64,000 nucleotides of DNA from Salinibacterium sp. ZJ450 (GCF_011751885.2 NZ_CP061771.1:2170001-2234000); one strand, 5' to 3'. Numbered from the stretch's first letter, positions 30,298-53,967 are shown. Program-made: numbers and translations. Notes: generated from the sequence alone by a model not told the origin.

Positions 30298-31103
30298 CAG
30301 CGGGTCTCCACCCCGCGCGGGCCGGTCTGCACCGGCGATCCCTGATGTAGCGCCTCGCGCACCGCGGTGACCATGTCGAAGAAGGCCTGCTCCTCGCGCA
30401 GGCCCTCGGTGCGGGCTGCTCCCAGCCGCATCGGGATAATCTCCTGGATCCGCCCGGGCCGTGGCGACATCACCACAACCCGGTCGGAGAGAAACGCCGC
30501 CTCCGGGATGGAGTGGGTGACGAACACCACCGCCGCCTTGGTCTCGGCGCAGATACGCACGAGTTCGGCCTGCATCCGTTCCCTGGTCATCTCGTCGAGC
30601 GCGCCGAATGGCTCGTCCATCAGCAGCAGGCTCGGCTTCTCGGCGAGTGAGCGGGCGATCGCCACGCGCTGCTGCATTCCGCCCGAGAGCTGGTCGGGGT
30701 ACCGGTCGGCAAAGTCGGAGAGCCCGACGAGCTCAATCAATTCGGCCACGCGTTCCTTGCGCTGCCGGGCGCCGACCCCGTGCAAGGTCAGCGGCAGCTC
30801 GATGTTTCCGGCCACGGTGCGCCACGGCAGCAGGCCCGCCTGCTGGAACGCGATGCCGTAGTCCTGATCGCGCCTGGCCTGGCTGGCGTTCTTGCCGAAC
30901 ACCTGCACGCTGCCGCTCGTCGGTGTGTCCAGGTCGGCAATCAGCCGCATCAGCGTCGACTTGCCGCAGCCGGATGGGCCGATCAGTGACACGAACTCGC
31001 CGGCGGCCACGGTCAGGTTGATCTCCTGCAGCGCCGACACCTGCCCCGACCGAGTCTCGAACGTCTTGTCGACCCCGGTGATAGTGACTGCTTCGGTTGT
31101 CAC
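30297..31103 (-). CDS. ABC transporter ATP-binding protein (SsuB/TauB type)
   Basis: ABC ATPase of 268 residues. Walker A is GPSGCGKST (about 42-50), the signature is LSGGMQQR, Walker B is LLLMDEPFGALD, and the switch His is in VTHSIPEA. The start is the GTG at 31103, which overlaps the preceding permease stop as GTGA; a longer upstream frame is a shadow of that permease. It energises the NMT1-type importer of this operon. Confidence 0.9.
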   Translation of the reverse strand: MTTEAVTITGVDKTFETRSGQVSALQEINLTVAAGEFVSLIGPSGCGKSTLMRLIADLDTPTSGSVQVFGKNASQARRDQDYGIAFQQAGLLPWRTVAGNIELPLTLHGVGARQRKERVAELIELVGLSDFADRYPDQLSGGMQQRVAIARSLAEKPSLLLMDEPFGALDEMTRERMQAELVRICAETKAAVVFVTHSIPEAAFLSDRVVVMSPRPGRIQEIIPMRLGAARTEGLREEQAFFDMVTAVREALHQGSPVQTGPRGVETR

Positions 31104-32032
31104 GTGTTGACCTCTACTCGTCGATAGTCCTTGAGTACAGCGCCGAGGATGGCGATCGAACCGGCGGCGACGAGACCGAGCACGATCGATCCGAAGATCG
31201 GACCCCATGCCTTTTCGGGGTCGCCGCTGGCCTGCCCGGCGTACTGGATGAGGATGCGGCCGATGCCGCCCTGCAGCCCGGTTGAGACCTCGGCGACCAC
31301 AGCGCCGATGACCGCGTTGGCGGCGGCCAGCCGGAGCGCGGGAAGCAGGTAGGGCACCGCGGCTGGGAAGCGCAGCCAGATGAGGGTCCTCCACCAGCCG
31401 GTGGCGTAGCTGTGCATCAGGTCGACGTGGATGGCATCCGGCGACTGCAGGCCCTTCAAGGCGCCGACGGCGACCGGGAAGAACGCCAGGTATGACGCGA
31501 TCAGGGCGACGGACATCCAGTCCTGCCATTCGAACGCGCCGATCTCGACCCTGGATCCCCAGCTGCGCACCACGGGCGCGAACGCGATGAGCGGGATGGT
31601 CTGGCTGAGCACGATCCAGGGCAGCAGTCCCCACTCGGCGATCCGCCAGCGCTGCATCACCAGCGCCAGCCCGATGCCGACGGCCACCGCCACCAGCCAG
31701 CCGACCGCGGCGATGCCGAGGGTGACCAGGGCGGCCTGGGCCACCACGACCCAGAGGGGTAGTGCGTCGGCCGACCGGGTCACCGGTTCGCCGAGCCGCG
31801 CCAGCATGTCCCAGACGTGTGGCATGGCGAGGTCGCTGGTGCGCGGCAGCACTCGGGTGTCGCCGATCACCACCCCGTCGGGCGGGCCGAGCAGCTTGTA
31901 CAGTTCCCACACCGCGACGAGCGTGAGGATGCCGAGCGCACCGAACCCCCACGCGGCGAGCAGCCGCCTGGGCGATCTCCGCCGCCTGAGTGCCGGTGGA
32001 ATGGGCGCGAGCGCCGGTTGAACGTCTGTCAT
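31100..32032 (-). CDS. ABC transporter permease
   Basis: Second permease of the importer, 310 residues, with a basic N-terminal tail (RRRRSPRR) before the first helix at about 26-45. The EAA-like loop is VDLMHSYATGWWRTLIWLRFPAAVPYL. The ATG overlaps the upstream LLM stop as ATGA. Two different permeases with one ATPase imply a heterodimeric channel. Confidence 0.87.
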   Translation of the reverse strand: MTDVQPALAPIPPALRRRRSPRRLLAAWGFGALGILTLVAVWELYKLLGPPDGVVIGDTRVLPRTSDLAMPHVWDMLARLGEPVTRSADALPLWVVVAQAALVTLGIAAVGWLVAVAVGIGLALVMQRWRIAEWGLLPWIVLSQTIPLIAFAPVVRSWGSRVEIGAFEWQDWMSVALIASYLAFFPVAVGALKGLQSPDAIHVDLMHSYATGWWRTLIWLRFPAAVPYLLPALRLAAANAVIGAVVAEVSTGLQGGIGRILIQYAGQASGDPEKAWGPIFGSIVLGLVAAGSIAILGAVLKDYRRVEVNT

Positions 32033-33045
32033 ACCTTGGCCACGATGTGTTCTCTGAGCGTGGGGATCACGGTTTCGCCGTAGACCCGCAGTGTCTCCTC
32101 TTTATTGTCATGCTGCAGGTACCCGGCGAAGTGGTCGACGCCGATGTCTTTCAGCGCCTTCAGCTTGTCGATGTGCTGCTCGGCGGTGCCCAGCACGCAG
32201 AACCGGTCGACGATCTCGTCTGGCACGAACTGGGTATGCACGTTCCCGGCCTGCCCGTGCTCGTTGTAGTCGTAGTCCTGACGGCCCTTGATGTAGTCGG
32301 TCAGCGCGTCCGGAACGGCTCCATGTTCGCCGTACTTCGCCACGATGTCGGCGACGTGGTTGCCCACCATTCCGCCGAACCAGCGGGTCTGGTCGCGCAT
32401 GTGCGGCAGGTCGTCGCCGATGTAGAACGGGGCCGCCACACAGAATTTCACCGACATCGGGTCGCGGCCCGCGGCGTCCGCGGCATCCCGAACCGTCTTG
32501 ATCATCCAACTGGCGATGTCGAGGTCGGCCAGCTGCAGGATGAAGCCGTCGCCCACCTCCCCGGCCAGTTTCAGCGCCAGCGGCCCGTACGCCGCCACCC
32601 AGATATCCAGCTGTGAGCCGCGGCTCCACGGGAACTGCAGGGTCGAGCCGTGGTACTCGACCGGTCTGCTGTTTGCGAGTTCCCTGATGACGTGGATCGA
32701 TTCGCGCAGGGTCTTCAGCGTGGTGGGCTCGCCGCCGGTGACCCGCACCGCGGAGTCTCCGCGGCCGATGCCGCAGATGGTGCGGTTGCCGTACATGTCG
32801 TTGAGGGTGGCGTACAGCGACGCGGTGACCGTCCAGTCGCGGGTGGCCGGGTTGGTGACCATGGGTCCCACCGTGATCCGGGTGGTCTCGGCCAGGATGC
32901 GGCTGTAGATCACGTACGGCTCCTGCCAGAGCAGGTGCGAGTCGAACGTCCAGGCGTGGGTGAACCCGAACTGCTCGGCGAGTTTCGCCAGGTGCACCGT
33001 GCGGGAGGCGGGCGGGTTGGTCTGTAGTACTACTCCGAAGTCCAT
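32029..33045 (-). CDS. LLM-class F420-dependent oxidoreductase, TIGR03842-like
   Basis: Luciferase-like TIM-barrel enzyme of 338 residues starting MDFGVVLQTNPPASRTVHLAKLAE. It resembles the TIGR03842 group, which from memory is assigned to coenzyme F420 and recurs next to hydantoinase-type genes. It lies 9 bp after dihydropyrimidinase and overlaps the permease gene, so it is firmly in the operon. No canonical dihydropyrimidine dehydrogenase gene is visible here, so this enzyme is a candidate for the redox step between uracil/thymine and their 5,6-dihydro forms. That role is inference; a ring-substituent oxidation is also possible. Confidence 0.82.
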   Translation of the reverse strand: MDFGVVLQTNPPASRTVHLAKLAEQFGFTHAWTFDSHLLWQEPYVIYSRILAETTRITVGPMVTNPATRDWTVTASLYATLNDMYGNRTICGIGRGDSAVRVTGGEPTTLKTLRESIHVIRELANSRPVEYHGSTLQFPWSRGSQLDIWVAAYGPLALKLAGEVGDGFILQLADLDIASWMIKTVRDAADAAGRDPMSVKFCVAAPFYIGDDLPHMRDQTRWFGGMVGNHVADIVAKYGEHGAVPDALTDYIKGRQDYDYNEHGQAGNVHTQFVPDEIVDRFCVLGTAEQHIDKLKALKDIGVDHFAGYLQHDNKEETLRVYGETVIPTLREHIVAKV

Positions 33046-33054
33046 GGCGCTCCC

Positions 33055-34488
33055 CTAGATCAGGTACTGACTGAGGCCACGTTTGACGAATTCACCGTCG
33101 CCCTTGCGGCCGAGGTACTGGTTGTCGTCGACGATGACGCGGCCGCGTGAGAGCACGGTGTCGACGTGTCCGTCGATCTCGTAGCCCTCCCACGCCGAGT
33201 AGTCCATGTTCATGTGGTGGGTCTTGCCGAGCCCGATCGAGGTGTGCCCGTTCGGGTCGTAGACCACGAGGTCGGCGTCCGCGCCCGGCTGGATGACGCC
33301 CTTCTCGCCGTACACGCCGAACATGCGCGCCGGTGTGGTGCTGGTGAGTTCTACCCAGCGTTCCAAGGTGATCTCCCCGGTGACGACCCCCTGGTACATC
33401 AGGTCCATCCGGTGCTCGATGCCGCCGATTCCGTTCGGGATCTTCCGGAAGTCGCTCCGTCCGAGATCCTTCTGATCCTTCATGCAGAACGGGCAGTGGT
33501 CGGTCGACACCGTCTGCAGCGCGTTGGTGCGCAGCGCCTGCCACAGCGAGTCCTGGTGCCCTTCGGCGCGGCTGCGCAGCGGCGTCGAGCAGACCCACTT
33601 GGCACCCTCGAACTTGCCCCATTCGTCGCTCGAGGCACCGAGCTGGTCTTCGAGCGACAGGTACAGGTACTGCGGGCAGGTCTCGCCGAAGACGTTCTGT
33701 CCCTTGCCTCGCGCCCAGGCCAGCTGCTCGACCGCCTGCTTAGCCGAAACGTGCACCACGTACAGCGGCGCACCGGTGACCTTCGCGAGCATGATGGCGC
33801 GGTGTGTCGCCTCTTCCTCCAGCTCCCAGGCGCGGGCGATGCCGTGGTAATAGGGGTCGGTGTTGCCCTGGTCCACGAGCTGCTGGGCGAGCACGTCGAT
33901 CGCTGGACCGTTCTCGGCATGCATCATCGTGAGCATGCCCGTGTCGCGCGACACCTGCATGGCCTTCAGGATCTGCGCGTCATCCGAATAGAACACCCCC
34001 GGATAGGCCATGAACAACTTGAAGCTCGTGACGCCCTCGTCGGGCAGGCGCCGCAGCGCCTCGAGCGAATCCGCGGTGACATCCCCGACTATCTGATGGA
34101 AGCCGTAGTCGATCGCGCAGTTGCCCGCCGCCTTCTCGTGCCAGGCCGCGAGACCGTCCTCGAGGCGCTGACCGTAGGTCTGCACGGCGAAGTCGATGAT
34201 CGAGGTGGTGCCGCCGTGCGCGGCGGCGCGGGTGCCGGATTCGAAGGTGTCGGATGCCTCGGTGCCGCCGAACGGCAGCTGCATGTGGGTGTGCGCGTCG
34301 ATGCCGCCCGGGATCACGTACTTGCCGGCGGCGTCGATGACGGTGTCCACGTTGCTCTCGACGTCGAAGCCGAGCAGGGTGGAGCCGGGTGCGAGCACAG
34401 CGGCGATCCTGTCGCCGTCGACCAGGACGTCGGCGGATGCGGTACCGGTGGCGTTGACGACGGTGCCGTTCTTGATGAGGGTCTTCAC
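33055..34488 (-). CDS. hydA: Dihydropyrimidinase / hydantoinase
   Basis: Cyclic amidohydrolase of 477 residues that opens dihydrouracil or hydantoin rings to N-carbamoyl amino acids. The binuclear metal site is complete: H66 and H68 (DAHTHM), carboxylated K157 (TSFKLFMAY), H190 (MMHAENG), H246 (VVHVSAK) and D330 (STDHCPF). The start is GTG with GGGAG upstream, 10 bp after the beta-ureidopropionase stop. The neighbouring carbamoyl hydrolase and aminotransferase favour dihydropyrimidine as the natural substrate. Confidence 0.93.
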   Translation of the reverse strand: MKTLIKNGTVVNATGTASADVLVDGDRIAAVLAPGSTLLGFDVESNVDTVIDAAGKYVIPGGIDAHTHMQLPFGGTEASDTFESGTRAAAHGGTTSIIDFAVQTYGQRLEDGLAAWHEKAAGNCAIDYGFHQIVGDVTADSLEALRRLPDEGVTSFKLFMAYPGVFYSDDAQILKAMQVSRDTGMLTMMHAENGPAIDVLAQQLVDQGNTDPYYHGIARAWELEEEATHRAIMLAKVTGAPLYVVHVSAKQAVEQLAWARGKGQNVFGETCPQYLYLSLEDQLGASSDEWGKFEGAKWVCSTPLRSRAEGHQDSLWQALRTNALQTVSTDHCPFCMKDQKDLGRSDFRKIPNGIGGIEHRMDLMYQGVVTGEITLERWVELTSTTPARMFGVYGEKGVIQPGADADLVVYDPNGHTSIGLGKTHHMNMDYSAWEGYEIDGHVDTVLSRGRVIVDDNQYLGRKGDGEFVKRGLSQYLI

Positions 34489-34498
34489 GGTGTCTCCC

Positions 34499-35347
34499 CT
34501 ACGGCTTCGGGATGGACGTGTAGGACTCCGGGCGGCGGTCGCGGTAGAACTGCCAGTTGTTGCGCACCTGCCGGATCATGTCCAAGTCGAGGTCGCGGAT
34601 GACCACTTCCTCCTCGCTGTCGCTGCCGTATTCGCCGACCAGGTTGCCCTGCGGGTCGACGAACTGGCTCGAACCGTAGAAGTTGACGGCGAGCGGGCCG
34701 TACTCGTTGTCCTCGGTGCCGACGCGGTTCGGGGCCGCCACGAAGTAGCCGTTCGCGGCCGCTGCGGCGGGCTGTTCGAGTTGCCAGAGCCGGTTGGAGA
34801 GCCCGGGTTTGGTGGCGTTCGGGTTGAACACGATTTGCGCGCCGTTCAGCCCGAGTTCGCGCCATCCCTCGGGGAAGTGGCGGTCGTAACAGATGTAGAC
34901 GCCGATCGGGCCGACGGCGGTCTTGAATACCGGATAGCCGAGGTTGCCCGGCCGGAAGTAGAACTTCTCCCAGAACTTGTCGAGGTTGGGGATGTGGTGC
35001 TTGCGGTACTTGCCGAGGATGCTGCCGTCGGAGTCGACCACCACCGCGGTGTTGTAGTAGACCCCGGGCTGGTCCTCCTCGTAGATCGGCAGCACCATGA
35101 CCATGTTGAGTTCCTTGGCCAGCTTCGCGAAGCGCTGCACGATCGGCCCGTCGGCCGGCTCGGCGTAGTCGTAGTACTTGGGGTCCTCGGTGATGCCGAA
35201 GTACGGACCGTAGAACAGCTCCTGGAAGCAGATAACCTGGGCGCCCTGGGCGGCCGCGTCACGCGCGAACTGCTCGTGCTTCTGGATCATCGACTCCTTG
35301 TCGCCGGTCCAGGTGGTCTGAGTGATCGCTGCTCGTACAACCGACAT
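34499..35347 (-). CDS. Nitrilase-superfamily N-carbamoyl hydrolase, probable beta-ureidopropionase
   Basis: Carbon-nitrogen hydrolase of 282 residues with the catalytic triad E43 (FQELFY), K116 (KYRKHHIP) and C153 (YICYDRHFPEG). It would release CO2 and ammonia from N-carbamoyl-beta-alanine. The start at ATG 35347 is set by GGAGG four bases upstream (MSVVRAAITQ). A 30-codon in-frame extension crosses the promoter dyads and is rejected. It is the first gene of the eight-gene minus-strand operon that ends with the aminotransferase gene. Confidence 0.92.
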   Translation of the reverse strand: MSVVRAAITQTTWTGDKESMIQKHEQFARDAAAQGAQVICFQELFYGPYFGITEDPKYYDYAEPADGPIVQRFAKLAKELNMVMVLPIYEEDQPGVYYNTAVVVDSDGSILGKYRKHHIPNLDKFWEKFYFRPGNLGYPVFKTAVGPIGVYICYDRHFPEGWRELGLNGAQIVFNPNATKPGLSNRLWQLEQPAAAAANGYFVAAPNRVGTEDNEYGPLAVNFYGSSQFVDPQGNLVGEYGSDSEEEVVIRDLDLDMIRQVRNNWQFYRDRRPESYTSIPKP

Positions 35348-35686
35348 GCTGCCTCCGCGCTCTATGACCCCGGCAACAGCTGCACCGTGCCGGGTGCCTT
35401 GTTTCAGAACAAACCTCGTTGTTTGCTCTGCCATCATCTGCCGTAAACATTTCTCGCTGATTTCGGCGTATGACGTTGGCGTAAACCTAGACGTGGCGGC
35501 GCGGCTCTACAAGCCCTGAGTTCAACACGGATGGCGCGCGGACCGAGTAACGTATGTCGTACCTCGACCCCTCGCGCCCGGTATGGCGCGGTGCGCTGAC
35601 TTCTCGCTGAAGCAGTTGGTTCGAGTTCGCCGGTGTGTTGCGCCCGCGGACTGTCCGTTCCCAGCCGTTCCCAGCCAAGGAGTTCC
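35348..35686. other. Divergent promoter region, no gene seen
   Basis: This 339-bp stretch separates the pyrimidine operon (minus strand) from the F420-precursor importer operon (plus strand). It is relatively AT-rich near 35400-35500. Apart from the dyads at 35399-35425 and an AAGGAG ribosome-binding site at 35677-35682, no conserved RNA fold, riboswitch or coding frame was recognised. Confidence 0.6.
35399..35425 (-). promoter_or_regulatory. Candidate operator of the pyrimidine-catabolism operon
   Basis: Two overlapping dyads are visible: TTGTT-TCAG-AACAA (35399-35412) and CAAAC-CTCGTT-GTTTG (35410-35425). They are AT-rich and lie 52-78 bp upstream of the first gene's ATG. No regulator gene is adjacent, so the binding protein is unknown. 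Confidence 0.45.
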
Positions 35687-36676
35687 GTGTCCCGTCGTAC
35701 CCTCGCAGTTCTTTCTCTCTCCCTCGGGGCGGTGGCCCTGTCTGGCTGTTCCGCGGCGACGGCTCCCGCGTCGAGCCCGTCCACCTCGTCGGTCGCGCCC
35801 ACCCCGGTGACGATCGATAACTGCGGTTTTGAGGTCACCGTCGAGCGCCCACCGGAGCGCATCCTCACCATCAAGTCGACGACCACCGAGATGCTGCTGG
35901 CCCTCGGCCTTGGAGACCAGATCATCGGCACCGCGTTCCCCGACGGGCCGGTTCCTGAGCAGTGGGCGGCCGAGGCGGCCGACATCCCGGTGATCAGTGA
36001 TTTCGCTCCTGCTCAGGAGGCGGTGCTCGATCTCGAACCCGACTTCATCTACGCCGGCTGGGAGTCGAACTTGACCTCGGACACCGCGGGTGAGCGCGAC
36101 GCGCTCGCGTCGCTCGGGGTGGGCAGCTATGTCTCCCCGTCCGCCTGCAAGGAGCCCGGATACAAGCCGGGGAAGCTCACCTTCGACCTGGTGTTCGACG
36201 AGATCCGCGAGGCCGGCACCGTGTTCGGTGCGGAAGCCGCGGCCGACGACCTGGTGGCCGAGCAGCAGCAAGCGCTCGCGGCGCTCTCGCCCTCCACCGC
36301 GGGCCTGACCGCGCTCTGGTACTCCTCTGGCACCGACACGCCGTATGTCGGGGCGGGCATCGGCGCCCCGCAGATGATGCTGGAGGCCGCTGGTCTGACG
36401 AACGTGGCGGCGAATGTCGCGGACACCTGGGCCTCGCTCGGCTGGGAGTCGATCATCGACGCCAATCCCGACGTGATCGTTCTGGTGGACGCCAGCTGGA
36501 ACACCGCAGCTTCGAAGATCGAGATGCTCACCGCCAACCCGGTGACCGCGCAACTGAGCGCGGTGGCCGAGCGCAGGTTCATCACGGTGCCGTTCGCAGC
36601 CGGTGAGGCGGGGGTGCGCAACGTCGAGGCGGTGCGGTCGATCCTCGACCAGCTGGCCGCGCTGGATGCCCGCTAA
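35687..36676 (+). CDS. ABC transporter substrate-binding lipoprotein for an F420 precursor
   Basis: Periplasmic-binding-like lipoprotein of the BtuF/FecB fold, 329 residues, with lipobox LSGC near residue 21. The GTG start at 35687 has AAGGAG four bases upstream. The segments GFEVTVERPPERILTIKSTTTEMLLALGL and FAPAQEAVLDLEPDFIYAGWESN are typical of metal-chelate binders. From memory it matches the 'putative F420-0 ABC transporter' set (TIGR03868) defined by proximity to F420 genes. Here it is in operon with cofD, so deazaflavin FO is a plausible ligand. Cobalamin or a siderophore remains possible. Confidence 0.78.
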   Translation: MSRRTLAVLSLSLGAVALSGCSAATAPASSPSTSSVAPTPVTIDNCGFEVTVERPPERILTIKSTTTEMLLALGLGDQIIGTAFPDGPVPEQWAAEAADIPVISDFAPAQEAVLDLEPDFIYAGWESNLTSDTAGERDALASLGVGSYVSPSACKEPGYKPGKLTFDLVFDEIREAGTVFGAEAAADDLVAEQQQALAALSPSTAGLTALWYSSGTDTPYVGAGIGAPQMMLEAAGLTNVAANVADTWASLGWESIIDANPDVIVLVDASWNTAASKIEMLTANPVTAQLSAVAERRFITVPFAAGEAGVRNVEAVRSILDQLAALDAR

Positions 36677-36680
36677 CCGG

Positions 36681-37769
36681 ATGCCGGGCGACAACCGGAT
36701 GACGGACCGGACGACGAGCGACGAGCGGATGCCGGGGACCCGGCGCACACCCGCGACCGGTCGTCGCCCGGCCACCACCTGGGCGTGGGGGCTGCTGCTG
36801 GCTGCGATGCTGGTCGCGTCGATCGTGACCGCGATCTGCTTCGGCGCCGCCGACATCCGCCCGGCCGACGTGTTCGCCAGCGTGGCCGCTCACCTCGGAT
36901 TGGGCGACAGTCCGCTCAGCGTGCTGCGCGACGGCATCGTGTGGGAGCTGCGGTTGCCGCGGGTGCTGACCGCGGCGGCCGTAGGCGCGGGCCTGGCGTT
37001 GGCCGGTGCGGTGATGCAGGCGCTCACCCGTAACCCGCTGGCCGACCCGTACCTGCTCGGGCTGTCATCTGGCGCGTCGCTCGGCGCGGTCAGCGTGCTG
37101 CTGCTCGGACTCGGCGTTCTGCTGCCGGTCGCCGCGTTCCTCGGGGCGTTGGCCGCCCTGCTCTGCACACTGCTGCTGGCCGGCGCATCCGGAGCACTCA
37201 CGCCCACTCGCACGGTGCTCGCCGGCGTGGCCGTGTCGGCGCTCGCGGCGGCGCTGACGAGCTTCGTGATTTTCTGGTCTGCCCAGGGCGATTCCTTCCG
37301 CGAGATCCTGAACTGGCTGCTCGGCTCACTCAGCGGCGCGGACTGGGGCACGGTCGCGATCGCCGGCACGGCGGTGCTGGTCGTCGGCGTGCCGGTGATG
37401 TTCAGCGGCCGGCTGCTCGACGCGTTCGCGTTCGGGGACACCACCGCGGCCGCGCTCGGCGTGAATGTGGCCGCCACCCGCTGGACGTTGCTGGCGGTGA
37501 CCGCCCTGCTCACCGGGGCGATGGTGTCGGTGAGCGGCTCGATCGGGTTCATCGGGCTCGTTCTGCCGCACGCGGTACGGTTGCTCACCGGGGCCCGGCA
37601 CCGGGTGCTGCTGCCGCTGGTCGCGTTGACCGGCGCGATCGTGCTCGTCTGGGCGGACACCGCGGCGCGCACCCTGTTCGACCCTCGGGAGCTTCCGGTC
37701 GGCATCGTCACGGCGATCGTCGGCGCTCCGGTGTTCGCGGCGCTGCTGGCGCGGCGGAGAACCCGATGA
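36681..37769 (+). CDS. ABC transporter permease, FecCD family (F420-precursor importer)
   Basis: BtuC/FecCD-type permease of about 362 residues with a long polar N-terminal tail and then roughly ten helices. Landmarks are LRLPRVLTAAAVGAGLALAGAVMQALTRNPLADP and GSIGFIGLVLPHAVR. The exact start is uncertain: ATGs at 36681, 36699 and 36729 are all in frame and none has a strong ribosome-binding site. The first, four bases after the upstream stop, is listed. It ends with an ATGA overlap into its ATPase gene. Confidence 0.85.
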   Translation: MPGDNRMTDRTTSDERMPGTRRTPATGRRPATTWAWGLLLAAMLVASIVTAICFGAADIRPADVFASVAAHLGLGDSPLSVLRDGIVWELRLPRVLTAAAVGAGLALAGAVMQALTRNPLADPYLLGLSSGASLGAVSVLLLGLGVLLPVAAFLGALAALLCTLLLAGASGALTPTRTVLAGVAVSALAAALTSFVIFWSAQGDSFREILNWLLGSLSGADWGTVAIAGTAVLVVGVPVMFSGRLLDAFAFGDTTAAALGVNVAATRWTLLAVTALLTGAMVSVSGSIGFIGLVLPHAVRLLTGARHRVLLPLVALTGAIVLVWADTAARTLFDPRELPVGIVTAIVGAPVFAALLARRRTR

Positions 37770-38578
37770 GCGCCGACTCGATGGGCGTTGATTCGAGGGG
37801 CCTTGCCGTCCGCGGCGTGCGGATGAGCCTCGGCGGCCGCAGCATCATCGACGGCGTCGACCTGATCGCGCCAGCAGGCTCGGTGACCGCTCTGGTCGGG
37901 CCGAACGGTGCGGGCAAGACCACCCTGTTGCGCGGGGTGGCGGGCCTGCTGCCGCTGTCCGCCGGCAGCGTGTGGTTCGGCGGCGACGACCTGCTCGGGC
38001 TCAGCCGACGGGCCCGCGCTCGGGTGGTCGCGGTGGTCGAGCAGGAGCTCAGCACCGAAGCCAGCCTGAGCGTGCGCGACGCGGTTGAACTCGGCCGGAC
38101 TCCGCATCGGCCACTGCTGGCCGCATCCGCCGGCGACGATGCCGCGGTGGTGACCGAGGCGCTGGCCACGGTGGGCATGGAGGGTTTCGCCGACCGGCAG
38201 CTCGAGTCGTTATCCGGCGGGGAACGGCAGCGCGTGCACCTGGCGCGGGCGCTTGCCCAGCAGCCGCGGCTGATGCTGCTCGACGAGCCAACGAACCATC
38301 TCGACATCCGGGCGCAACTGTCGACGCTCGCGCTGCTGCGCCGGCTGGCCCGCAACTCGGTGACGGTGATCGCCGCGCTGCACGACCTCACCCTCGCCGC
38401 CACCTACGCCGACCACGTCGTGGTGCTGACCGAGGGCCGCGTGGTCGCGTCTGGCCCACCCGGCGACGTGCTGACCGCACCGGTCATCCACGACGTGTAT
38501 GGCGTGCAGGCGACCGTGTTGCAGCATCCCGGGACCGGCCGTCCGGTCATCGCATTCGCCCCAGAGGAGGACTCGTGA
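37766..38578 (+). CDS. ABC transporter ATP-binding protein (F420-precursor importer)
   Basis: BtuD/FecE-type ATPase of 270 residues. Walker A is GPNGAGKTT (about 46-54), the signature is LSGGERQR, Walker B is LMLLDEPTNHLD and the switch His is in LHDLTLA. It overlaps both neighbours (ATGA upstream, GTGA into cofD downstream), so transporter and cofD are strictly co-translated. That coupling is the main evidence that the transported molecule feeds F420 synthesis. Confidence 0.88.
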   Translation: MSADSMGVDSRGLAVRGVRMSLGGRSIIDGVDLIAPAGSVTALVGPNGAGKTTLLRGVAGLLPLSAGSVWFGGDDLLGLSRRARARVVAVVEQELSTEASLSVRDAVELGRTPHRPLLAASAGDDAAVVTEALATVGMEGFADRQLESLSGGERQRVHLARALAQQPRLMLLDEPTNHLDIRAQLSTLALLRRLARNSVTVIAALHDLTLAATYADHVVVLTEGRVVASGPPGDVLTAPVIHDVYGVQATVLQHPGTGRPVIAFAPEEDS

Positions 38579-39543
38579 TCGCTGGACCCATCAGAATCGC
38601 CGTGCTGGCCGGGGGCGTGGGCGGCGCCAAGTTCGTGCGCGGGGTGCGGCACGCAATGCCGGATGCCGACATCCGGGTGGTCGTCAACACCGGGGACGAC
38701 CTGTGGCTGACCGGGGTGCGGGTCTGCCCCGACCTGGACTCGATCATGTACGCGCTCGCCGGCGTGAACGACACCGAACGCGGCTGGGGACGGGCGGGCG
38801 AGAGCGAGCGGGTGTCCGCGGAGCTGGCGGCGTACGGGGTGGGCTGGCCGTGGTTCACGCTCGGCGACCTCGACTTGGGCACCCACCTGGCTCGCACCAG
38901 CCTGCTGCGCGACGGGCTGACCCTGACCGCGGCGACCGAGCGCCTCGCCGCCCGTTGGCCGATCGGCGTGACCCTGCTGCCGATGAGCGATCAGCCGGTG
39001 GAGACGCACGTGCGGGTCGCGGACGGGCTGGTCCACTTCGAGGAGTGGTGGGTTCGGCACCGCGCAGCCGTGCCGGCGCTCGGATTCGAGCAACTGGGCG
39101 TGCAGTCTGCCTCGCCGACGCCGGAGGTGCTCACGGCGATCGCCGAGGCCGACGCGGTGCTGCTCGCCCCGTCGAATCCCGTGGTGTCGATCGGCACGAT
39201 CCTGGGGGTGCCCGGCATGCGGGACGCGCTCGCCACCACGCCGGCACCGGTCGTGGGCGTGTCGCCGATCATCGGCGGAGCCGCCCTGCGCGGCATGGCC
39301 GCCGAGTGCCTGGCCGCGATCGGGGTCGCGGTGAGCGCGGATGCCGTGGCGCGGCACTACGGAGCCCGATCCTCCGGCGGCCTGCTGGACGGCTGGCTGG
39401 TGGACACTGCGGATGCCGCGGCGGTCGACGAGCTCATCGGTGACGGGATCCGCGCGGCGGCGAGACCGCTCTACCTGACCACCCTCGACGAATCGGCCGC
39501 GATCGTGAGATCCGCGCTGGAGTTGGGGCTGCCCCGCCGCTGA
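38575..39543 (+). CDS. cofD: 2-phospho-L-lactate transferase CofD/FbiA
   Basis: Transfers the phospholactate (or phosphoenolpyruvate) moiety from its GDP/GPP-activated form to the deazaflavin FO, giving (dehydro)F420-0. The 322-residue protein has the nucleotide loop LAGGVGGAKFVRG (about 9-21) and the FO-site segment NTGDDLWLTGVRVCPDLDS (about 40-58). The GTG start overlaps the ATPase stop. It is convergent with cofC, which makes its activated donor; two hairpin repeats lie between them. Confidence 0.94.
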   Translation: MIAGPIRIAVLAGGVGGAKFVRGVRHAMPDADIRVVVNTGDDLWLTGVRVCPDLDSIMYALAGVNDTERGWGRAGESERVSAELAAYGVGWPWFTLGDLDLGTHLARTSLLRDGLTLTAATERLAARWPIGVTLLPMSDQPVETHVRVADGLVHFEEWWVRHRAAVPALGFEQLGVQSASPTPEVLTAIAEADAVLLAPSNPVVSIGTILGVPGMRDALATTPAPVVGVSPIIGGAALRGMAAECLAAIGVAVSADAVARHYGARSSGGLLDGWLVDTADAAAVDELIGDGIRAAARPLYLTTLDESAAIVRSALELGLPRR

Positions 39544-39676: not shown

Positions 39677-39735
39677 GTGAGGTCTGGCGTTTAGTCGTTC
39701 CGGAGGTCTGGAAGGGACCGTTTGCCAGACCTCAC
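39677..39735. repeat. Palindromic repeat, GAGGTCTG family, copy 3
   Basis: A perfect 12-bp stem, GTGAGGTCTGGC (39677-39688) with GCCAGACCTCAC (39724-39735). Internal parts (TTTAGT, TTCC, GAAG, CCG) match copy 2. The right arm contains the cofC stop codon, so the last cofC codons lie at the edge of the repeat. Confidence 0.7.
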
Positions 39736-40361
39736 TCGGGTGATGCCGGTGATGCCGGGTCCAGCGCGGCTCTCGTGTGCCGGCCCACGCCGAGGGCGAG
39801 CGCCTGCCGGAGGTCGGGTTCGCTGTCGACGTCGCGGCGGAGACCGGATGTCGCGGGCAGCTCGATCGGCACGTGACCGGCCTGCTCGTGGACGGCCCGG
39901 GATCCTGCGCCGAACCGTGGCACGAGCGCATCGGCGCGCAGGGCGGTGCTGAGGGTGGTTCCTGTGCCATCGGCATCGGGCACCATCGCGAGCGGGTGAG
40001 TGGCCGCCACGGCGAGCGCGGCGTCGAGGTCATGTGCGGTGAGGGCGGGCAGGTCAGCCAGCAGCACCCCGGCCGGGTGCGCCAGCTCGAGCACGGCGAG
40101 TCCGGAGCGGATCGCGGCGTTCAACCCCTCGCCAGGGTCGGGCACGATTTCGGCCCTTGATCCGTGCAGCGCTCCGGCGACCGCGACATCCGAAGTCACG
40201 ACGATCACGCGGCCGACCGATCCGGCGGCGAGCACCGCGTCGATCGCGTCTAGCGCGAACGCGATGGCGAGCGGTGAGCGCAGGCGGTCGTCTGCCAGGG
40301 CCAGGCGTGATTTGCCGTCGGCACCCTTCACCGGGAGTACGAGCGACCAGAGTGCTGACAT
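39732..40361 (-). CDS. cofC: 2-phospho-L-lactate / phosphoenolpyruvate guanylyltransferase
   Basis: CofC/FbiD nucleotidyltransferase of 209 residues that uses GTP to activate 2-phospholactate or phosphoenolpyruvate for CofD. Visible motifs are LVLPVKGADGKSRL at the N-terminus, GEGLNAAI, LLADLPAL, PDADGTGTTL, FGAGSRAVHE and the C-terminal LRRDVDSEPDL. The ATG at 40361 is the start. It is transcribed towards cofD, so the two F420 steps are encoded convergently. Confidence 0.92.
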   Translation of the reverse strand: MSALWSLVLPVKGADGKSRLALADDRLRSPLAIAFALDAIDAVLAAGSVGRVIVVTSDVAVAGALHGSRAEIVPDPGEGLNAAIRSGLAVLELAHPAGVLLADLPALTAHDLDAALAVAATHPLAMVPDADGTGTTLSTALRADALVPRFGAGSRAVHEQAGHVPIELPATSGLRRDVDSEPDLRQALALGVGRHTRAALDPASPASPE

Positions 40362-40412: not shown

Positions 40413-40438
40413 GCGCGTCCGCTATTTCGCTGTGCTCG

Positions 40439-41456
40439 CTACTTCGCGGCCGCCGCGGCGGTGGCGAGGGCTGCGACGTACTCGTCGATGCCCCAGGTGA
40501 GCGACAGCGCCGTGGGCGGCGACACCGCGGCGACCAGTTCGGTGCCGGTGACCGGAGGCCACCGTGCCCGCCTGCACCGCGGGAATCGCCTGCGCGTAGC
40601 TGGTCGCGAGGAACGCCTCGGCCGCGGCATCGTCGGCGGCGAAGTTCACCAGGATGTCGCTGTCGAGCTTGTCGAGCTGCTCATAGCTCAGCGTGTAGTA
40701 GAACGTGGAGTCGCCGCTGGCGAGTTCGTCCACCGCGGGGGCACTCACCATGCCCAGGTCGAGCAGGAACTGCACCCGCGAGTCGGCCTCCTTGTAGACG
40801 TAGAAGGTTCCGCCGACATCCCAGACGGCCGCCACGGTCTTGCCCTTGAGCTCCGGATGCGCTGCCGCCTGTTCGTCGACGACGGCCGCGATCTCGTCGA
40901 GCACGACGTCTGCCTCGGCGGACTTGCCAAGCGCGTCGCCGACGGTGCTGATCACGTCGCGCCATGGCGTCGACCAGGCCTCGTCGGGGTACGCCACGGT
41001 CGGCGCGATCTCGCTGAGCAAGGCGTACTGTTCCTCGGTGATGCCGGAGTAGACGGCCAGGATCAGGTCAGGGGCTGCCTCGGCGATCTGCTCGTAGGCG
41101 GGTGCCTCGGTGGATTCGGGGATCACCGTGGGGGTCTCCTCCCCCAGCTCGTCGAGCTTCTCGGCCACCCACGGCAGCACGCCGTTCTCGTCGCCGCCGT
41201 AGCTTTGCGCCTCCATCGCCACCGGAACCACCCCGAGCGCGAGCGCGGCATCCGTGCTGCCCCAGCCGAGCGTCACCACTCGTTCGGGCGCTGCGCTGAT
41301 CTCGGTCTCACCGAAGGCATGCTCGATGCTGACGGGGCTGAAGTCGCCGCCGCCGGACGTGCTGTCGACGTCGGACGGGGTGGCGGCGGCGCATCCGGTG
41401 ATGGCCAGCATCGACGCCGCGAGAGCGGCGACGATCGCGAGGGGACGTACGGTCAC
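40439..41456 (-). pseudogene. Iron-siderophore ABC binding protein, frameshifted near the C-terminus
   Basis: FepB/FecB-type lipoprotein with lipobox ITGC. The GTG at 41456 has AAGGAG upstream. The frame is intact from the start through PERVVTLGWGSTDAALALG and up to AIPAVQAGTVAS. There one extra base (about 40551-40555, in CCGG) shifts the frame; the shifted product runs to 40422 with an unrelated Arg/His-rich tail. The family-typical end (VTGTELVAAVSPPTALSLTW...) continues in the other frame to a stop at 40439. About 35 C-terminal residues are affected. This is either a real recent mutation or a sequencing error. An iron box lies upstream. Confidence 0.8.
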
Positions 41457-41480
41457 GGGGACTCCTTGTGCAGGGGAAGG

Positions 41481-41516
41481 CAAACCTTACTTAGGATTCA
41501 AACCTTACTTAGGATT
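41481..41516. repeat. Perfect tandem 18-bp repeat upstream of the siderophore-binding gene
   Basis: CAAACCTTACTTAGGATT occurs twice head to tail (41481-41498 and 41499-41516). The second copy runs into the iron box, so the first copy adds a TTAGG half-site closer to the gene. Confidence 0.85.
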
Positions 41517-41527
41517 GCCTTGCCTAA
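41509..41527 (-). promoter_or_regulatory. Iron box (IdeR/DtxR operator)
   Basis: TTAGGATTGCCTTGCCTAA matches the DtxR/IdeR consensus TTAGGTTAGGCTAACCTAA at 14 of 19 positions, with both TTAGG/CCTAA arms perfect. It lies about 50 bp upstream of the siderophore-binding gene, implying repression when iron is plentiful. Confidence 0.8.
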
Positions 41528-41588
41528 GGTAGCGCATGAAACGCGGCGCGCGCGACTGGAGATCAGACCGTGATCGGGGCAGGCCAGC

Positions 41589-42980
41589 TCAGGGCTGTGA
41601 CGTGGCCGCCGTCCGCACCCGGTACTGGGCGCCGCGGTGCGACTCGGGCAACCGGTCACCGTGCCCGAACAGCTTGTTCCGAAGCGTTCCGGTGGCGTAC
41701 TCCTCCGGGTACACGCCGCGCTTGCGAAGCTCTGGAACCACGTAGGTGACGACGTCCTCGAACGTTCCCGGCGTGATCGCGTAGGCGAGGTTGAAGCCGT
41801 CGACATCCGTCTCGGCCACCCACTCCTGCAACTGGTCGGCGATCTCAGCACCGGAGCCCACGATGAACGGCCCCAGCCCGCCGATCGCACCGTGCTCGGC
41901 GATATCCCGCACGGTGAACTCGCGGCCGTGCACCTCGGCCGACTCCTGGAAGTTCGCGATCACCGACTGGATCGCATTGCTCTTCACATTGCCCACCGGC
42001 TCGTCCAGGTCGTACTGGGACAGGTCGATGCCCATCCAGCCGGACATGAACACCAGTGCGCCCTCCGGGCTGGCGTAGGACAGGTAGTCCTCGAACTTGG
42101 CGCGCGCCTTCTCCGGCGTCTCATCGGTGATGATCGTCAGCAGCGTGTAGATGCGGGCCGAGTACCGATCACGGCCGGCAGCCTCCAACGCGTCCCGGAT
42201 GCGCTTCACCGAGCTGGCCAGCACCTCCTTGGTGGGGGCGGCCACGAAGATCGCCTCCGCGTTCCCTGCCGCGAACGCGATCCCGCGCGGCGAAGCGCCG
42301 GCCTGGTAGATCACCGGGGTGCGCTGCGGCGACGGCTCAGAGATGTGGATGCCGGGAACTGTGAAGTGCTTGCCCTGATGGTTGATCGGGTGCACCTTCG
42401 CCGGGTCGGTGAAGACACCGCTCTCCCGGTCGCGCACCACGGCGTCATCTTCCCAGGAGCCCTCCCACAGCTTGTACAGCACCTCCAGGTACTCGTCGGC
42501 GTACGCGTAGCGGTCGTCGTGTTCGAGCTGGTCATCCTGGCCCATGTTGCGGGCCGCGGAGGGCAGGTACCCGGTGACCACGTTCCAGCCGACCCGGCCC
42601 TTGGTCAGGTGGTCGAGGGTCGACATCCGTCTGGCGAACGGGTACGGATGTTCGTATGCAGTGCCGGCGGTCACTCCGAAGCCGAGGTTCTCGGTCACGT
42701 GCGCCATGGCCGACACCAGCATCAGCGGGTCGTTCACGGGCACCTGGGCGGCGTGACGGATGGCGGCCTCGTTGCTGCCGCCGTAGACGTCGTACGTGCC
42801 GAGCACGTCGGCGATGAAGATGCCGTCGAAGGTGCCGCGTTCGAGCAGCTTCGCGAGCTCGGTCCAGTAGTCGAGGTCCTTGTACCGGGACGACTGGTCG
42901 TTCGGGTGCCGCCACAGCCCGGAGGACTGGTGGGCGACGCAGTTCATGTCGAAAGCGTTGAATCGGATCTGCCTAGCCAT
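41589..42980 (-). CDS. FMNH2-dependent monooxygenase, NtaA/SnaA/DszA family
   Basis: LLM-class flavin monooxygenase of 463 residues from the large-subunit group that uses free FMNH2 (nitrilotriacetate, pristinamycin, dibenzothiophene-sulfone and dimethylsulfide monooxygenases). Features are NAFDMNCVAHQSSGLW at the N-terminus, RVGWNVVTG (about 128-136), DDRYAYADEYLEV and YQAGASPRG. It is divergent from an FMN reductase gene, its expected FMNH2 supplier. The substrate is not predictable. It interrupts the iron-uptake region and has no iron box of its own. Confidence 0.87.
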   Translation of the reverse strand: MARQIRFNAFDMNCVAHQSSGLWRHPNDQSSRYKDLDYWTELAKLLERGTFDGIFIADVLGTYDVYGGSNEAAIRHAAQVPVNDPLMLVSAMAHVTENLGFGVTAGTAYEHPYPFARRMSTLDHLTKGRVGWNVVTGYLPSAARNMGQDDQLEHDDRYAYADEYLEVLYKLWEGSWEDDAVVRDRESGVFTDPAKVHPINHQGKHFTVPGIHISEPSPQRTPVIYQAGASPRGIAFAAGNAEAIFVAAPTKEVLASSVKRIRDALEAAGRDRYSARIYTLLTIITDETPEKARAKFEDYLSYASPEGALVFMSGWMGIDLSQYDLDEPVGNVKSNAIQSVIANFQESAEVHGREFTVRDIAEHGAIGGLGPFIVGSGAEIADQLQEWVAETDVDGFNLAYAITPGTFEDVVTYVVPELRKRGVYPEEYATGTLRNKLFGHGDRLPESHRGAQYRVRTAATSQP

Positions 42981-43022
42981 CCGTCAATCGTCCGCGCCGA
43001 CGCGGGAGAATCCACTGCGGAA

Positions 43023-43057
43023 CGTCACACGGCGTCACATCGTGACGTCCTGTGACG
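43023..43057. promoter_or_regulatory. Nested dyad operator between monooxygenase and FMN reductase genes
   Basis: Two concentric inverted repeats share one centre at 43040: outer CGTCACA (43023-43029) / TGTGACG (43051-43057) and inner CGTCAC (43033-43038) / GTGACG (43042-43047). The spacing suits two stacked dimers of a regulator. It lies in the 119-bp divergent promoter region. Confidence 0.7.
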
Positions 43058-43099
43058 TGCCGGATCGACTCGCGGGGCGCACGTGCTTAACCTCGGGCA

Positions 43100-43693
43100 A
43101 TGGCTTCCGTATCGACCAGCACCCTCGACCGCCCGCTCTCCGTGGTCGGCGTCTCGGGCAGCCTGCAGACCCCGTCGAAGACGACGGCGCTGGTCACCGA
43201 GATCATCGCCAGCCTCGGTCGGCAACGCCCCATCGACCCTCACCTGATCGAGCTCGAGCGGATCGGCCCTGACCTCGCCGGGGCGATCAGCCGCGCACAG
43301 CTGCCAGAGTCGGTGGAGGAGGAACTGCGCCGGATCGAGACCGCCGACCTGCTCGTGGTCGCGAGCCCGGTGTACCGGGCCTCGTTCAGCGGCCTGTTCA
43401 AGCACCTGTTCGACTTCGTCGGCCAGTACGACCTCGTCGATACCCCGGTGCTGCTCGCCGCCACCGGGGGCAGCGACCGGCACGCGCTGATCATCGAGCA
43501 CCAGCTGCGGCCGCTGTTCGGCTTCTTCCAGGCGGTGACCCTGCCGCTCGGCGTGTACGCCTGCGATTCCGACTTCACCGACTATCGCGTGGCGAACCCG
43601 GAGCTGCTCACCAGAATCGACCTCGCGGTGGCCCGCGCGCAGCCGCTGATCAGGCCGGAGCCCGTGGTCGTCGACCGCCCGGCGTGGTTCTGA
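43100..43693 (+). CDS. NADPH-dependent FMN reductase (MsuE/SsuE type)
   Basis: Flavodoxin-fold reductase of 197 residues that supplies FMNH2 to two-component monooxygenases. It has the phosphate-binding segment GVSGSLQTPSKTTAL (about 17-31) and the family motif VVASPVYRASFSGLFKHLFDF (about 85-105). It is transcribed divergently from the NtaA/SnaA-like oxygenase across a shared nested dyad, so they probably form one inducible system. Confidence 0.9.
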   Translation: MASVSTSTLDRPLSVVGVSGSLQTPSKTTALVTEIIASLGRQRPIDPHLIELERIGPDLAGAISRAQLPESVEEELRRIETADLLVVASPVYRASFSGLFKHLFDFVGQYDLVDTPVLLAATGGSDRHALIIEHQLRPLFGFFQAVTLPLGVYACDSDFTDYRVANPELLTRIDLAVARAQPLIRPEPVVVDRPAWF

Positions 43694-43706
43694 GCTAGCG
43701 CGCGAT

Positions 43707-44552
43707 TCAGCCTGGTGGGGCAGCGGGGGCTGCCCCACCATGGAACCGTCCCACCGGCACCACCATCGGCGCCCCGCAGACCGGGTCGGTGACCACACGC
43801 GATTCCAGCGCGAAGGCGTTCTGCACCAGTTCCGCCGAGATCACCTCGGCCGGTGGTCCGCTGGCGATGATCCGCCCTGCGGCCATCACCACGATGTGGT
43901 CGGCGTAGCGGGCGGCCAGGTTCAGGTCGTGCAGCACCATCACGACGGTGGTGCCGCGGCTGCGGTTCAGGTCGGTGAGCAGGTCGAGCACCTCGATCTG
44001 GTGGGTCACGTCGAGGAACGTGGTCGGTTCATCCAGCAACAGGATGTCGGGATCCTGAGCCAGCACCATGGCGATCCACACCCGTTGGCGCTGACCGCCG
44101 GAGAGCTCCTCGATGCGTCGACCGGCGAGTTGCGCGGTGTCGGTCGCCCGCAGCGCCTCGGTGACCTGCGCGTCATCCGTGCTGGTCCACTGCCGGAACC
44201 AGCCCTGATGCGGGTACCGGCCGCGACCGACCAGGTCGGCGACGGTGATGCCCTCCGGTGCCGTCGGCGACTGCGGCAGGATGCCGATCGTGCGGGCCAC
44301 GTCCTTTGCGGTCTGGGCGTGGATGTCGCGGCCGTCGAGTGTCACCCGGCCGGACGCTGGTTTCAGCAGCCGCGAGATGCCGCGCAGCAGGGTCGATTTG
44401 CCGCACGCGTTGGCGCCCACGATCACGGTGACCTGCCCGTCGGGAACGGTGAGATCGAGGTCTTGGATGACCGGCCGGCCGTCGTAGGCGAGCCCGAGGT
44501 TCTCGGCGCGCAGCGTGTGGCGGGGCTTCCGGGCGACTGTCACATCGGTCAT
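43707..44552 (-). CDS. fepC: Iron-siderophore ABC transporter ATP-binding protein
   Basis: FepC/FhuC-type ATPase of 281 residues. Walker A is GANACGKST (an A-for-G variant common in this group), the signature is LSGGQRQR, Walker B is ILLLDEPTTFLD and the switch is LHDLN. The ATG at 44552 overlaps the permease stop as ATGA; an upstream in-frame start would lie inside that permease gene. It is the last gene of the SIP-fepD-fepG-fepC operon. Its final codons are encoded by a terminator-like hairpin. Confidence 0.92.
   Translation of the reverse strand: MTDVTVARKPRHTLRAENLGLAYDGRPVIQDLDLTVPDGQVTVIVGANACGKSTLLRGISRLLKPASGRVTLDGRDIHAQTAKDVARTIGILPQSPTAPEGITVADLVGRGRYPHQGWFRQWTSTDDAQVTEALRATDTAQLAGRRIEELSGGQRQRVWIAMVLAQDPDILLLDEPTTFLDVTHQIEVLDLLTDLNRSRGTTVVMVLHDLNLAARYADHIVVMAAGRIIASGPPAEVISAELVQNAFALESRVVTDPVCGAPMVVPVGRFHGGAAPAAPPG
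43713..43740. terminator. Hairpin between FMN reductase gene and fepC
   Basis: A perfect 12-bp stem, TGGTGGGGCAGC (43713-43724) with GCTGCCCCACCA (43729-43740), closes a GGGG loop. It overlaps the fepC C-terminal codons and lies between convergent genes. Confidence 0.65.
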
Positions 44553-52180: not shown

Positions 52181-52963
52181 TCAGGTCGTTCCTTGTCGAC
52201 GGTCGGCGCTGGCGCCATCGCGCAGGCCTTCCGCGTAGCCCTCCGCGTGCGCTTCGTTGCTGCCCAGCCGGAACAGGTCGTCGGCGGCAGGCCGGATCAG
52301 CGCCCGGGCGCCCGGCAGGTCCAGCTCCCCCACGTACTGACCCAGTCCGCGCACCACGGCGACCGGTCTGCCGGAGGCCTTGCCCTTGACCAGTTCGGCC
52401 GCTCCGGCGATCTCGTCGGCCACGGCCGCGAGGGTGGCCTCGAGCACCCGCCCGCCAGAGTCGGTGGTGCCGCGCAGATCGTCGATCACCCGCACACCGG
52501 CGGCGCCGATCGCGACATCCGTCTGCCCCTGCCGCCAGGCACGACCGAGGGTGTCGGTGACGATCACGCCGAGACGCACGCCGAACCGGGCCCGCAGTGC
52601 CGTGCAGAGCGCCAGGGCCGAGGCATCCGGGTCCTCCGGAAGCAGCAGGATGGTGCCGTCCGGCGTGTTGCTGGCGTCGACTCCGGCGGCGGCCAGCACG
52701 AGGCCGAGCGGGTTCTCCACGATCCGGGTCACCCCGTGGCCGTGCTGTTTGGTGGCGACGATCCGCACGGTCTGCTCGGTGATCGCCTGCTCCCGGTCGG
52801 CGGCGGCTACCTGGCGCCCCTCCGCCTTGGAGACGATCTTCGAGGTGACGGCGAGGATGTCGCCATCCTGAAGCATCCCGTCGGCGGCGTCCCCGATGAT
52901 GCCGGCGAGGTCGTCGCCTGCCACGATCTCGGGGACCCCGTCCATGGTGAAGATACTGAGCAT
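52181..52963 (-). CDS. cofE: Coenzyme F420-0:L-glutamate ligase
   Basis: CofE/FbiB-N-type ligase of 260 residues that adds gamma-glutamates to F420-0. Motifs are [12 protein letters not shown] (about 39-50), [38 protein letters not shown] and VVRGLG. It lacks the C-terminal nitroreductase domain of mycobacterial FbiB, so reduction of dehydro-F420 must be done elsewhere if phosphoenolpyruvate is used. The start at ATG 52963 overlaps the FGD-like LLM stop as TGATG, coupling an F420 user with F420 tail synthesis. Confidence 0.93.
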
Positions 52964-53967
52964 CAGCGGCTCAGTTTCGGCAGCACGTCGCGCGAGAACA
53001 CGTCGATCCAGTCCCGCTGGTTGCGGCCGACGTTGTGCAGGTAGATGCGGCTGAAGCCGAGGTCGGCGAATCGCTGGATGTGCGCACGGTGCACGTCGGG
53101 ATCGCTGGAGATGACCATGCGGCCCTCGAAGTCCTCCGGGCGCACCAGTTTGGTCAGCTGTTCCAGCTCGAACGGGCTGCGGATGTCGCCCTTCGGGAAC
53201 CGCATCGCGGCGATCGGCCATTCGGTCAGGGCGTTCTGCATGGCTTCCTCATCGGTCGGCGCCCAGGACAGGTGCAGCTGAAGGGTGCGCGTCATCGCTG
53301 AGGCATCCTTGCCCGCCTCGCGGGCGCCCTCGGCGAACCGGGTCAGCAGCGACGCGGTCTTGTCATATGGCGCCCCCTCGGTGATGAGCCCGTCGGCCGC
53401 ACGCCCGGCGCGGCGTGCGGTGATCGGACCGTTGGTGGCAACCAGAATCTCGGGAGCTTGCTCCGGCATGGTCCAGAGCCGGGTCGATTCCAGCCGGTAA
53501 TACTGCCCCGAGTGCTTGACGTCGCGACGGGTCAGGCCGGAGATGAAGAGCTTCCGGATGATCTCGACGGCCTCGAACATCCGGTTGATGCGTTCGTGCG
53601 GTTCTGGCCAGTATTGGCCGGTGATGTGCTCGTTGATGGCCTCACCGGAGCCGATGCCGAGCCAGTGCCGGCCGGGATACATCGCCGCGAGGGTCGCGCT
53701 CGCCTGCGCCACCATCGCCGGATGCCAGCGGAAGGTGGGGGTGCTGACGCCGGGGCCCATGTCGCCGGTGGTGCGCTCGCCGATCGCGGTCAGCACGTTC
53801 CAGACGAAGGAACTCTGCCCCTGCTGCGGAACCCACGGCTGGTAGTGGTCGGCCGCCATCACCCCCGAGAAGCCCTTGCTCTCGGCGTACGCACTGAGCT
53901 CGACGGCTTCCATCGGAGGGAACTGCTCGAGCATGGCGGCGTAGCCAACCCGAAGAGAACTCGTCAT
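52963..53967 (-). CDS. F420-dependent oxidoreductase, glucose-6-phosphate dehydrogenase (FGD) family
   Basis: LLM-class enzyme of 334 residues close to mycobacterial F420-dependent glucose-6-phosphate dehydrogenase. Active-site equivalents are visible: ADHYQPW (His and Trp of FGD) and GSGEAINEH (the catalytic Glu). If it is a true FGD it would recycle F420 to F420H2 using glucose-6-phosphate. It could be an FGD-like enzyme with another substrate, because the phosphate-binding basic residues cannot be assigned safely. Overlap with cofE supports F420 as the cofactor. Confidence 0.88.

Follow-up and report, generated by a model that had tools for sequence, protein, structure and literature searches.

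Here, we provide genomic and comparative evidence that an importer encoded in one tight unit with cofD probably takes up FO (7,8-didemethyl-8-hydroxy-5-deazariboflavin) released by other microbes, which would make the organism an FO auxotroph and scavenger. F420 is normally regarded as made from scratch by each of its users. The importer belongs to a family annotated as a putative F420-0 transporter, and comparison across the order suggests that this family probably contains both FO and F420-0 importers, that it switched between the two repeatedly, and that the copy described here is of the FO kind.

The window, i.e., the whole stretch of 64,000 nucleotides that was analysed, carries the genes for a substrate-binding protein (SBP), a permease, an ATPase and CofD as a single tight unit on the + strand (35687-39543). 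These genes and the related genes around them, scored with NCBIfam models against the curated cut-offs, are as follows.

35687..36676, + strand: SBP, the lipoprotein of the importer and proposed FO-binding component (TIGR03868, 470.6 bits, above the cut-off of 392.4)
36681..37769, + strand: permease (TIGR03869, 496.7 bits, above the cut-off of 437.35)
37766..38578, + strand: TIGR03873-like ATPase (TIGR03873, 366.1 bits, cut-off 372.4)
38575..39543, + strand: cofD/fbiA, transferase of phospholactate (or phosphoenolpyruvate) to FO (TIGR01819, 342.9 bits, above the cut-off of 257.45)
39732..40361, - strand: cofC/fbiD, guanylyltransferase (TIGR03552, 127.6 bits, above the cut-off of 105)
about 52181..52963, - strand: cofE, F420-0:glutamate ligase (TIGR01916, 230.7 bits over 257 aa, above the cut-off of 180.65)
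52963..53967, - strand: F420-dependent LLM oxidoreductase of a G6PDH-like family (TIGR03557, 269.7 bits, cut-off 210.4)
32029..33045, - strand: F420-dependent LLM oxidoreductase, a second F420 user nearby (TIGR03842, 584 bits, cut-off 295)

The SBP gene starts with GTG at 35687, is preceded by AAGGAG and encodes the lipobox LSGC. The permease starts at 36681 or 36699 (its listed reading frame begins at 36603) and overlaps the ATPase gene by 4 nt. The ATPase falls about 6 bits short of the TIGR03873 threshold, yet this model is its top match by far. An earlier note on this DNA had described an importer resembling the F420-0 set, co-translated with cofD, with cofC convergent and cofE some 13 kb away. 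This description is borne out by the profile scores, by the 4-nt overlap between the ATPase stop and the cofD start (GTGA, read in the sequence), by the position of cofC on the - strand, convergent with cofD, and by the location of cofE 12.6 kb from the importer-cofD unit. Both cofD and cofE are the only copies in the genome. The cofE gene lies directly downstream of the LLM gene at 52963..53967, with which it is operonic and which scores below the equivalog TIGR03554. The window thus holds at least two F420-dependent LLM genes, and a TIGR03842 homologue was found again close to the importer in many loci. In mycobacteria, the C-terminal reductase domain of FbiB completes the reduction of dehydro-F420-0; the corresponding model (TIGR03553) had no match in the genome, and none in G045 either, though the cofE frame of G045 is long enough to include a fused domain.

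In its general fold, the SBP belongs with the BtuF/haem/siderophore binding proteins, and next to cofC lies a genuine set of siderophore importer genes (40422-46644). Both would suit an importer of some other cargo, such as cobalamin, haem or a siderophore, with an unrelated cofD next to it. However, the F420-0 models score far above any cobalamin or iron model, the importer is coupled to cofD, and it was absent from all 114 genomes without CofE in the survey reported below, so that we regard a cargo of this type as extremely improbable.

The source genome is complete (single contig, 3.83 Mb, 99.3% completeness). Across its entire length we found no match to CofH at E<=1 and none to CofG at E<=1e-10, while the CofG/CofH models did match 52 of the 297 surveyed genomes. 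The lack of an FO synthase that the earlier note had reported for the window therefore extends to the complete genome, and the genome-wide search for cofG, cofH and fbiC that it had proposed came out as predicted. A cell with CofC, CofD and CofE needs FO. As the genome encodes all three without an FO synthase, which is the gene content expected around an FO importer, the organism needs FO; an F420-0 importer would be expected in a host with CofE only, and here CofC and CofD are both present.

The comparison covered 297 genomes of the order, almost all with a completeness of 90% or more, which were searched for the importer, CofD, CofH, CofE and CofG. Seventy-nine carry the importer, 78 of them with more than 350 bits and the last (G237) with a split match adjoining cofD. 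CofD is encoded in 46 of the 79 and absent from 33. CofC follows CofD exactly: it occurs in all 46 importer genomes with CofD (two matches score under the cut-off but adjoin cofD) and in none of the 33 without it, where the best score was 38.8 bits against the cut-off of 105. An FO synthase was found in only three importer genomes (G190, G270 and G289), and 43 genomes of the order combine the importer with CofC, CofD and CofE in the absence of an FO synthase. After adding G237, the genomes with both cofD and cofE comprise 47 with the synthase only, 43 with the importer only, three with both and 19 with neither. This near-exclusivity of importer and FO synthase has a Fisher p of 5e-12, calculated on the counts before G237 was moved and ignoring kinship. 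It recurs within a single genus (g3), in which five genomes have the FO synthase without the importer and one (G093) the importer without the synthase. CofG was likewise absent from 46 of the 50 named species that carry the importer. In the majority of loci with linked importer and cofD, no more than about 60 nt separate the ATPase gene from cofD, and a 4-nt overlap is the commonest arrangement. On the genome counts and these junctions, a chance association of the importer with cofD was rejected.

According to the annotated role, the importer takes up F420-0, and CofC and CofD are redundant or relics. The family is indeed named for F420-0 in NCBIfam, and CofE is present in all 79 importer genomes (compared with 105 of the 219 genomes tallied without importer, a tally that still contained G237). 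A cell importing F420-0 would, however, not retain two upstream enzymes, and CofC and CofD were kept together in 46 of 46 genomes, 43 of them without FO synthase, and translational coupling of the two to the importer is common. We therefore consider the annotated role very unlikely where these enzymes are present. The doubt that the earlier note had cast on the F420-0 annotation is supported for the copy in the window and does not carry over to the branches with CofE only, for which F420-0 is probably still right.

Two sets of genomes run counter to FO import: the three with both importer and FO synthase, and the 19 with cofD and cofE and neither of the two, the majority of which belong to family f17. 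These 19 may depend on FO that reaches them by diffusion, employ a different importer or encode an unknown FO synthase. Extended to the organism studied here, the last option would mean that an unrecognised, non-homologous synthase makes FO in the cell and that the importer is accessory. We know of no alternative to CofG/CofH or FbiC, and genomes that lack the FO synthase are precisely those with a strong enrichment of the importer, which leaves a hidden synthase hardly credible as the explanation for this organism.

In a tree of the 79 importers, the types with cofC/cofD and with cofE only are interleaved, and well supported branches force at least seven changes between them. A clean split into a clade of FO importers and a clade of F420-0 importers, which had been expected, is ruled out by this topology. 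If F420-0 has to be imported by cells with cofE only and FO is what the others need, then the importer is either broad or has changed its substrate many times. A broad deazaflavin importer would take up FO and F420-0 everywhere and leave it to the enzymes of the cell which of them is used. The interleaving itself, without a deep division into two transporters, agrees with this, as do the three genomes with importer and FO synthase, which fit a general scavenger. A transporter blind to its substrate would, however, have no need for residues of the SBP that shift with cofC/cofD in independent lineages, as was observed at positions 269, 273 and 276, and we regard a uniformly broad importer as rather unlikely. 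In the window, these residues are encoded as follows.

36491..36493, + strand: codon for Ala269, which is numbered 287 in the longer ORF; genomes with cofC/cofD have Ala here and those lacking them Ser
36503..36514, + strand: residues 273-276; position 276 is Ser, Asp, Gln or Ala with cofC/cofD and mostly His or Lys without, position 273 is Thr as opposed to often Ser

When columns of the SBP were compared, a single one, 269, divided the two classes almost fully; none in a scan of the permease was as clean. Ala269 occurs in 32 of the 33 genomes with the usual cofC/cofD type, Ser269 in 31 of the 33 with cofE only. The 13 genomes with a divergent CofD-CofC pair, counted separately, are mixed (six Ala, seven Ser). 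Exceptions to the rule are Ala without CofD in G113, G129, G430 and G476 and Ser with CofD in G073. Ser269 was seen in nine genomes with CofD, and eight of these have only the divergent pair; one of the eight, G410, was assigned to this type by CofD score and distance alone. Of the 33 usual cofC/cofD genomes, 31 have Ser, Asp, Gln or Ala at position 276 (ORF residue 294), and of the 33 with cofE only, 28 have His or Lys there. Lys276 also occurs in 11 named loci in which Ala269 is combined with nearby cofC/cofD. The SBP of the window is of the Ala269 type with Ser at 276. A basic residue at 276 in cofE-only genomes would make chemical sense, as FO lacks the phosphodiester and the carboxylate of F420-0.

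The pattern held in loci that had not been used to find it. With the prediction fixed beforehand, family f9 (160 genomes) was searched for importer and CofD; about 30 of its other genomes had been in the discovery set, and the held-out set consisted of 49 newly read loci. Ala269 was present in 23 of 24 importers from genomes with CofD, and Ser269 in 20 of 25 without CofD, or 19 of 21 when genomes below 90% completeness were excluded. Shared ancestry was addressed by independent pairs differing in cofC/cofD, drawn from a tree that combined the importers of the discovery and held-out sets (123 in all) and was built with columns 269 and 276 omitted. For residue 269, a mean of 7.9 pairs were concordant, none opposite and 5.1 tied (median sign-test p 0.0078), which placed it second among the scanned SBP columns. 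Position 276 gave 6.5 concordant, no opposite and 6.5 tied pairs (p 0.016), and position 273 gave 9.0 concordant and 0.6 opposite. The SBP residue thus covaries with the presence of CofC and CofD in discovery, held-out and phylogeny-controlled tests alike. We lean towards the view that FO and F420-0 import were switched repeatedly via these few adjacent residues (269, 273 and 276), in step with the loss or retention of cofC/cofD.

The structural model of the SBP (pLDDT 87) has its top fold match in 4mlz from Jonesia denitrificans, at 47% identity. In the alignment, the equivalents of 269 and 276 in 4mlz are Ser and Lys, and J. denitrificans is one of the CofE-only founders in the rationale of TIGR03868. 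A strand ends with residue 269, and the second position after it holds a nearly invariant Trp. In binding proteins of the BtuF/haem/siderophore class, strand ends face the ligand cleft; judged from secondary structure, residue 269 would do so as well.

Uptake of FO would proceed as follows. The lipoprotein SBP would capture FO that F420 producers have released, and the permease would move it inward at the expense of ATP. CofC would activate phospholactate or PEP with GTP, and CofD would join the product to imported FO, yielding (dehydro-)F420-0. Glutamates added by CofE would complete F420 for the LLM oxidoreductases. That the imported compound is handed to CofD, as the earlier note suggested, is supported in the sense of operon coupling and not in that of a physical handover. 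Its proposal of an FO scavenger, by comparison, gains support from the 43 genomes of like gene content, the rarity of CofG in importer-bearing species and the residue covariation.

Supernatants of F420 producers are reported to contain micromolar FO, a compound that has also been described as membrane permeable (PMC11917521). Because of this permeability the importer is perhaps not strictly needed and may serve scavenging at low concentration, when FO is scarce. A search limited to the open-access literature turned up no experimental study of an importer for F420-0 or FO.

If FO import is true, many Actinobacteria, species of Cellulomonas, Cryobacterium, Agromyces and Glaciihabitans among them, depend on the FO of others, and FO is a vitamin in microbial communities. 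FO import is well supported by the comparative evidence and would transfer some members of the putative F420-0 transporter family to FO, so that the family name used in automatic annotation would be wrong for over half of the members sampled here. If the switching is true as well, soil and plant Actinobacteria would exchange FO and F420-0 as public goods, and two or three residues of the SBP could tell which deazaflavin is preferred.

The importer of the window shares its sequence family, three-gene set, occurrence in Actinobacteria and linkage to cofE and F420-dependent LLM genes with the putative F420-0 transporter of TIGR03868, TIGR03869 and TIGR03873. That transporter, however, was proposed from CofE-only genomes, whereas in this case the importer is coupled to CofC and CofD, the FO synthase is absent and the SBP is of the Ala269 type. 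The 4mlz protein, from the CofE-only J. denitrificans, is of the same family and fold but has Ser/Lys where the SBP of the window has Ala/Ser. The BtuCDF vitamin B12 importer and the haem and siderophore importers have the binding-protein fold and importer architecture in common with it; unlike these, the set in the window scores much lower on their models and its operon contains no cobalamin or iron gene. Compared with the FbiC (CofG/CofH) route of mycobacteria and streptomycetes, the downstream steps by CofC, CofD and CofE are alike, but an importer stands in place of the FO synthase.

Among the surveyed genomes of the order, 19 encode CofD and CofE and lack both the FO synthase (CofG/CofH) and the TIGR03868 importer (G001, G004, G010, G016, G031, G090, G118, G137, G146, G160, G167, G204, G214, G224, G244, G254, G264, G283, and G292; loci L095-L108 and L110-L114). 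Most of them belong to a single family, f17, and cofD and cofE are mostly neighbours. In some relatives, a single cluster contains cofE in two copies together with two FGD-like LLM genes (L020, L021, L023, and L193; genus g2 and one Agromyces locus).

In the window, a gene block diverges from the putative FO importer, and a siderophore-type block adjoins cofC:

29524-35437, - strand: block with dihydropyrimidinase/hydantoinase,
carbamoyl-type amidohydrolase,
F420-dependent LLM oxidoreductase (TIGR03842),
and SsuC/nitrate-type ABC importer
40422-46644, - strand: ABC importer of the siderophore type, with binding protein, permeases, and ATPase
41589-42980: NtaA/DmoA monooxygenase, within the siderophore-type block
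43100-43693: MsuE-type FMN reductase, within the same block
46644-47609: siderophore-interacting protein-like gene (judged by eye), after it

The TIGR03842 gene is again found in the vicinity of the importer in many genomes, and this recurrence suggests a ring-degradation pathway dependent on F420.

A second, divergent CofD-CofC pair occurs among genomes of families f9 and f13 (L115-L120 and L123-L129; e.g., L119:8785-10197 and L117 near 9480); in most cases it is unlinked to the importer or cofE. At L117 (genome G026), the pair is adjoined by a nitroreductase gene and a D-lactate-dehydrogenase-like gene, an arrangement that looks like a self-contained cassette for F420-0 synthesis.
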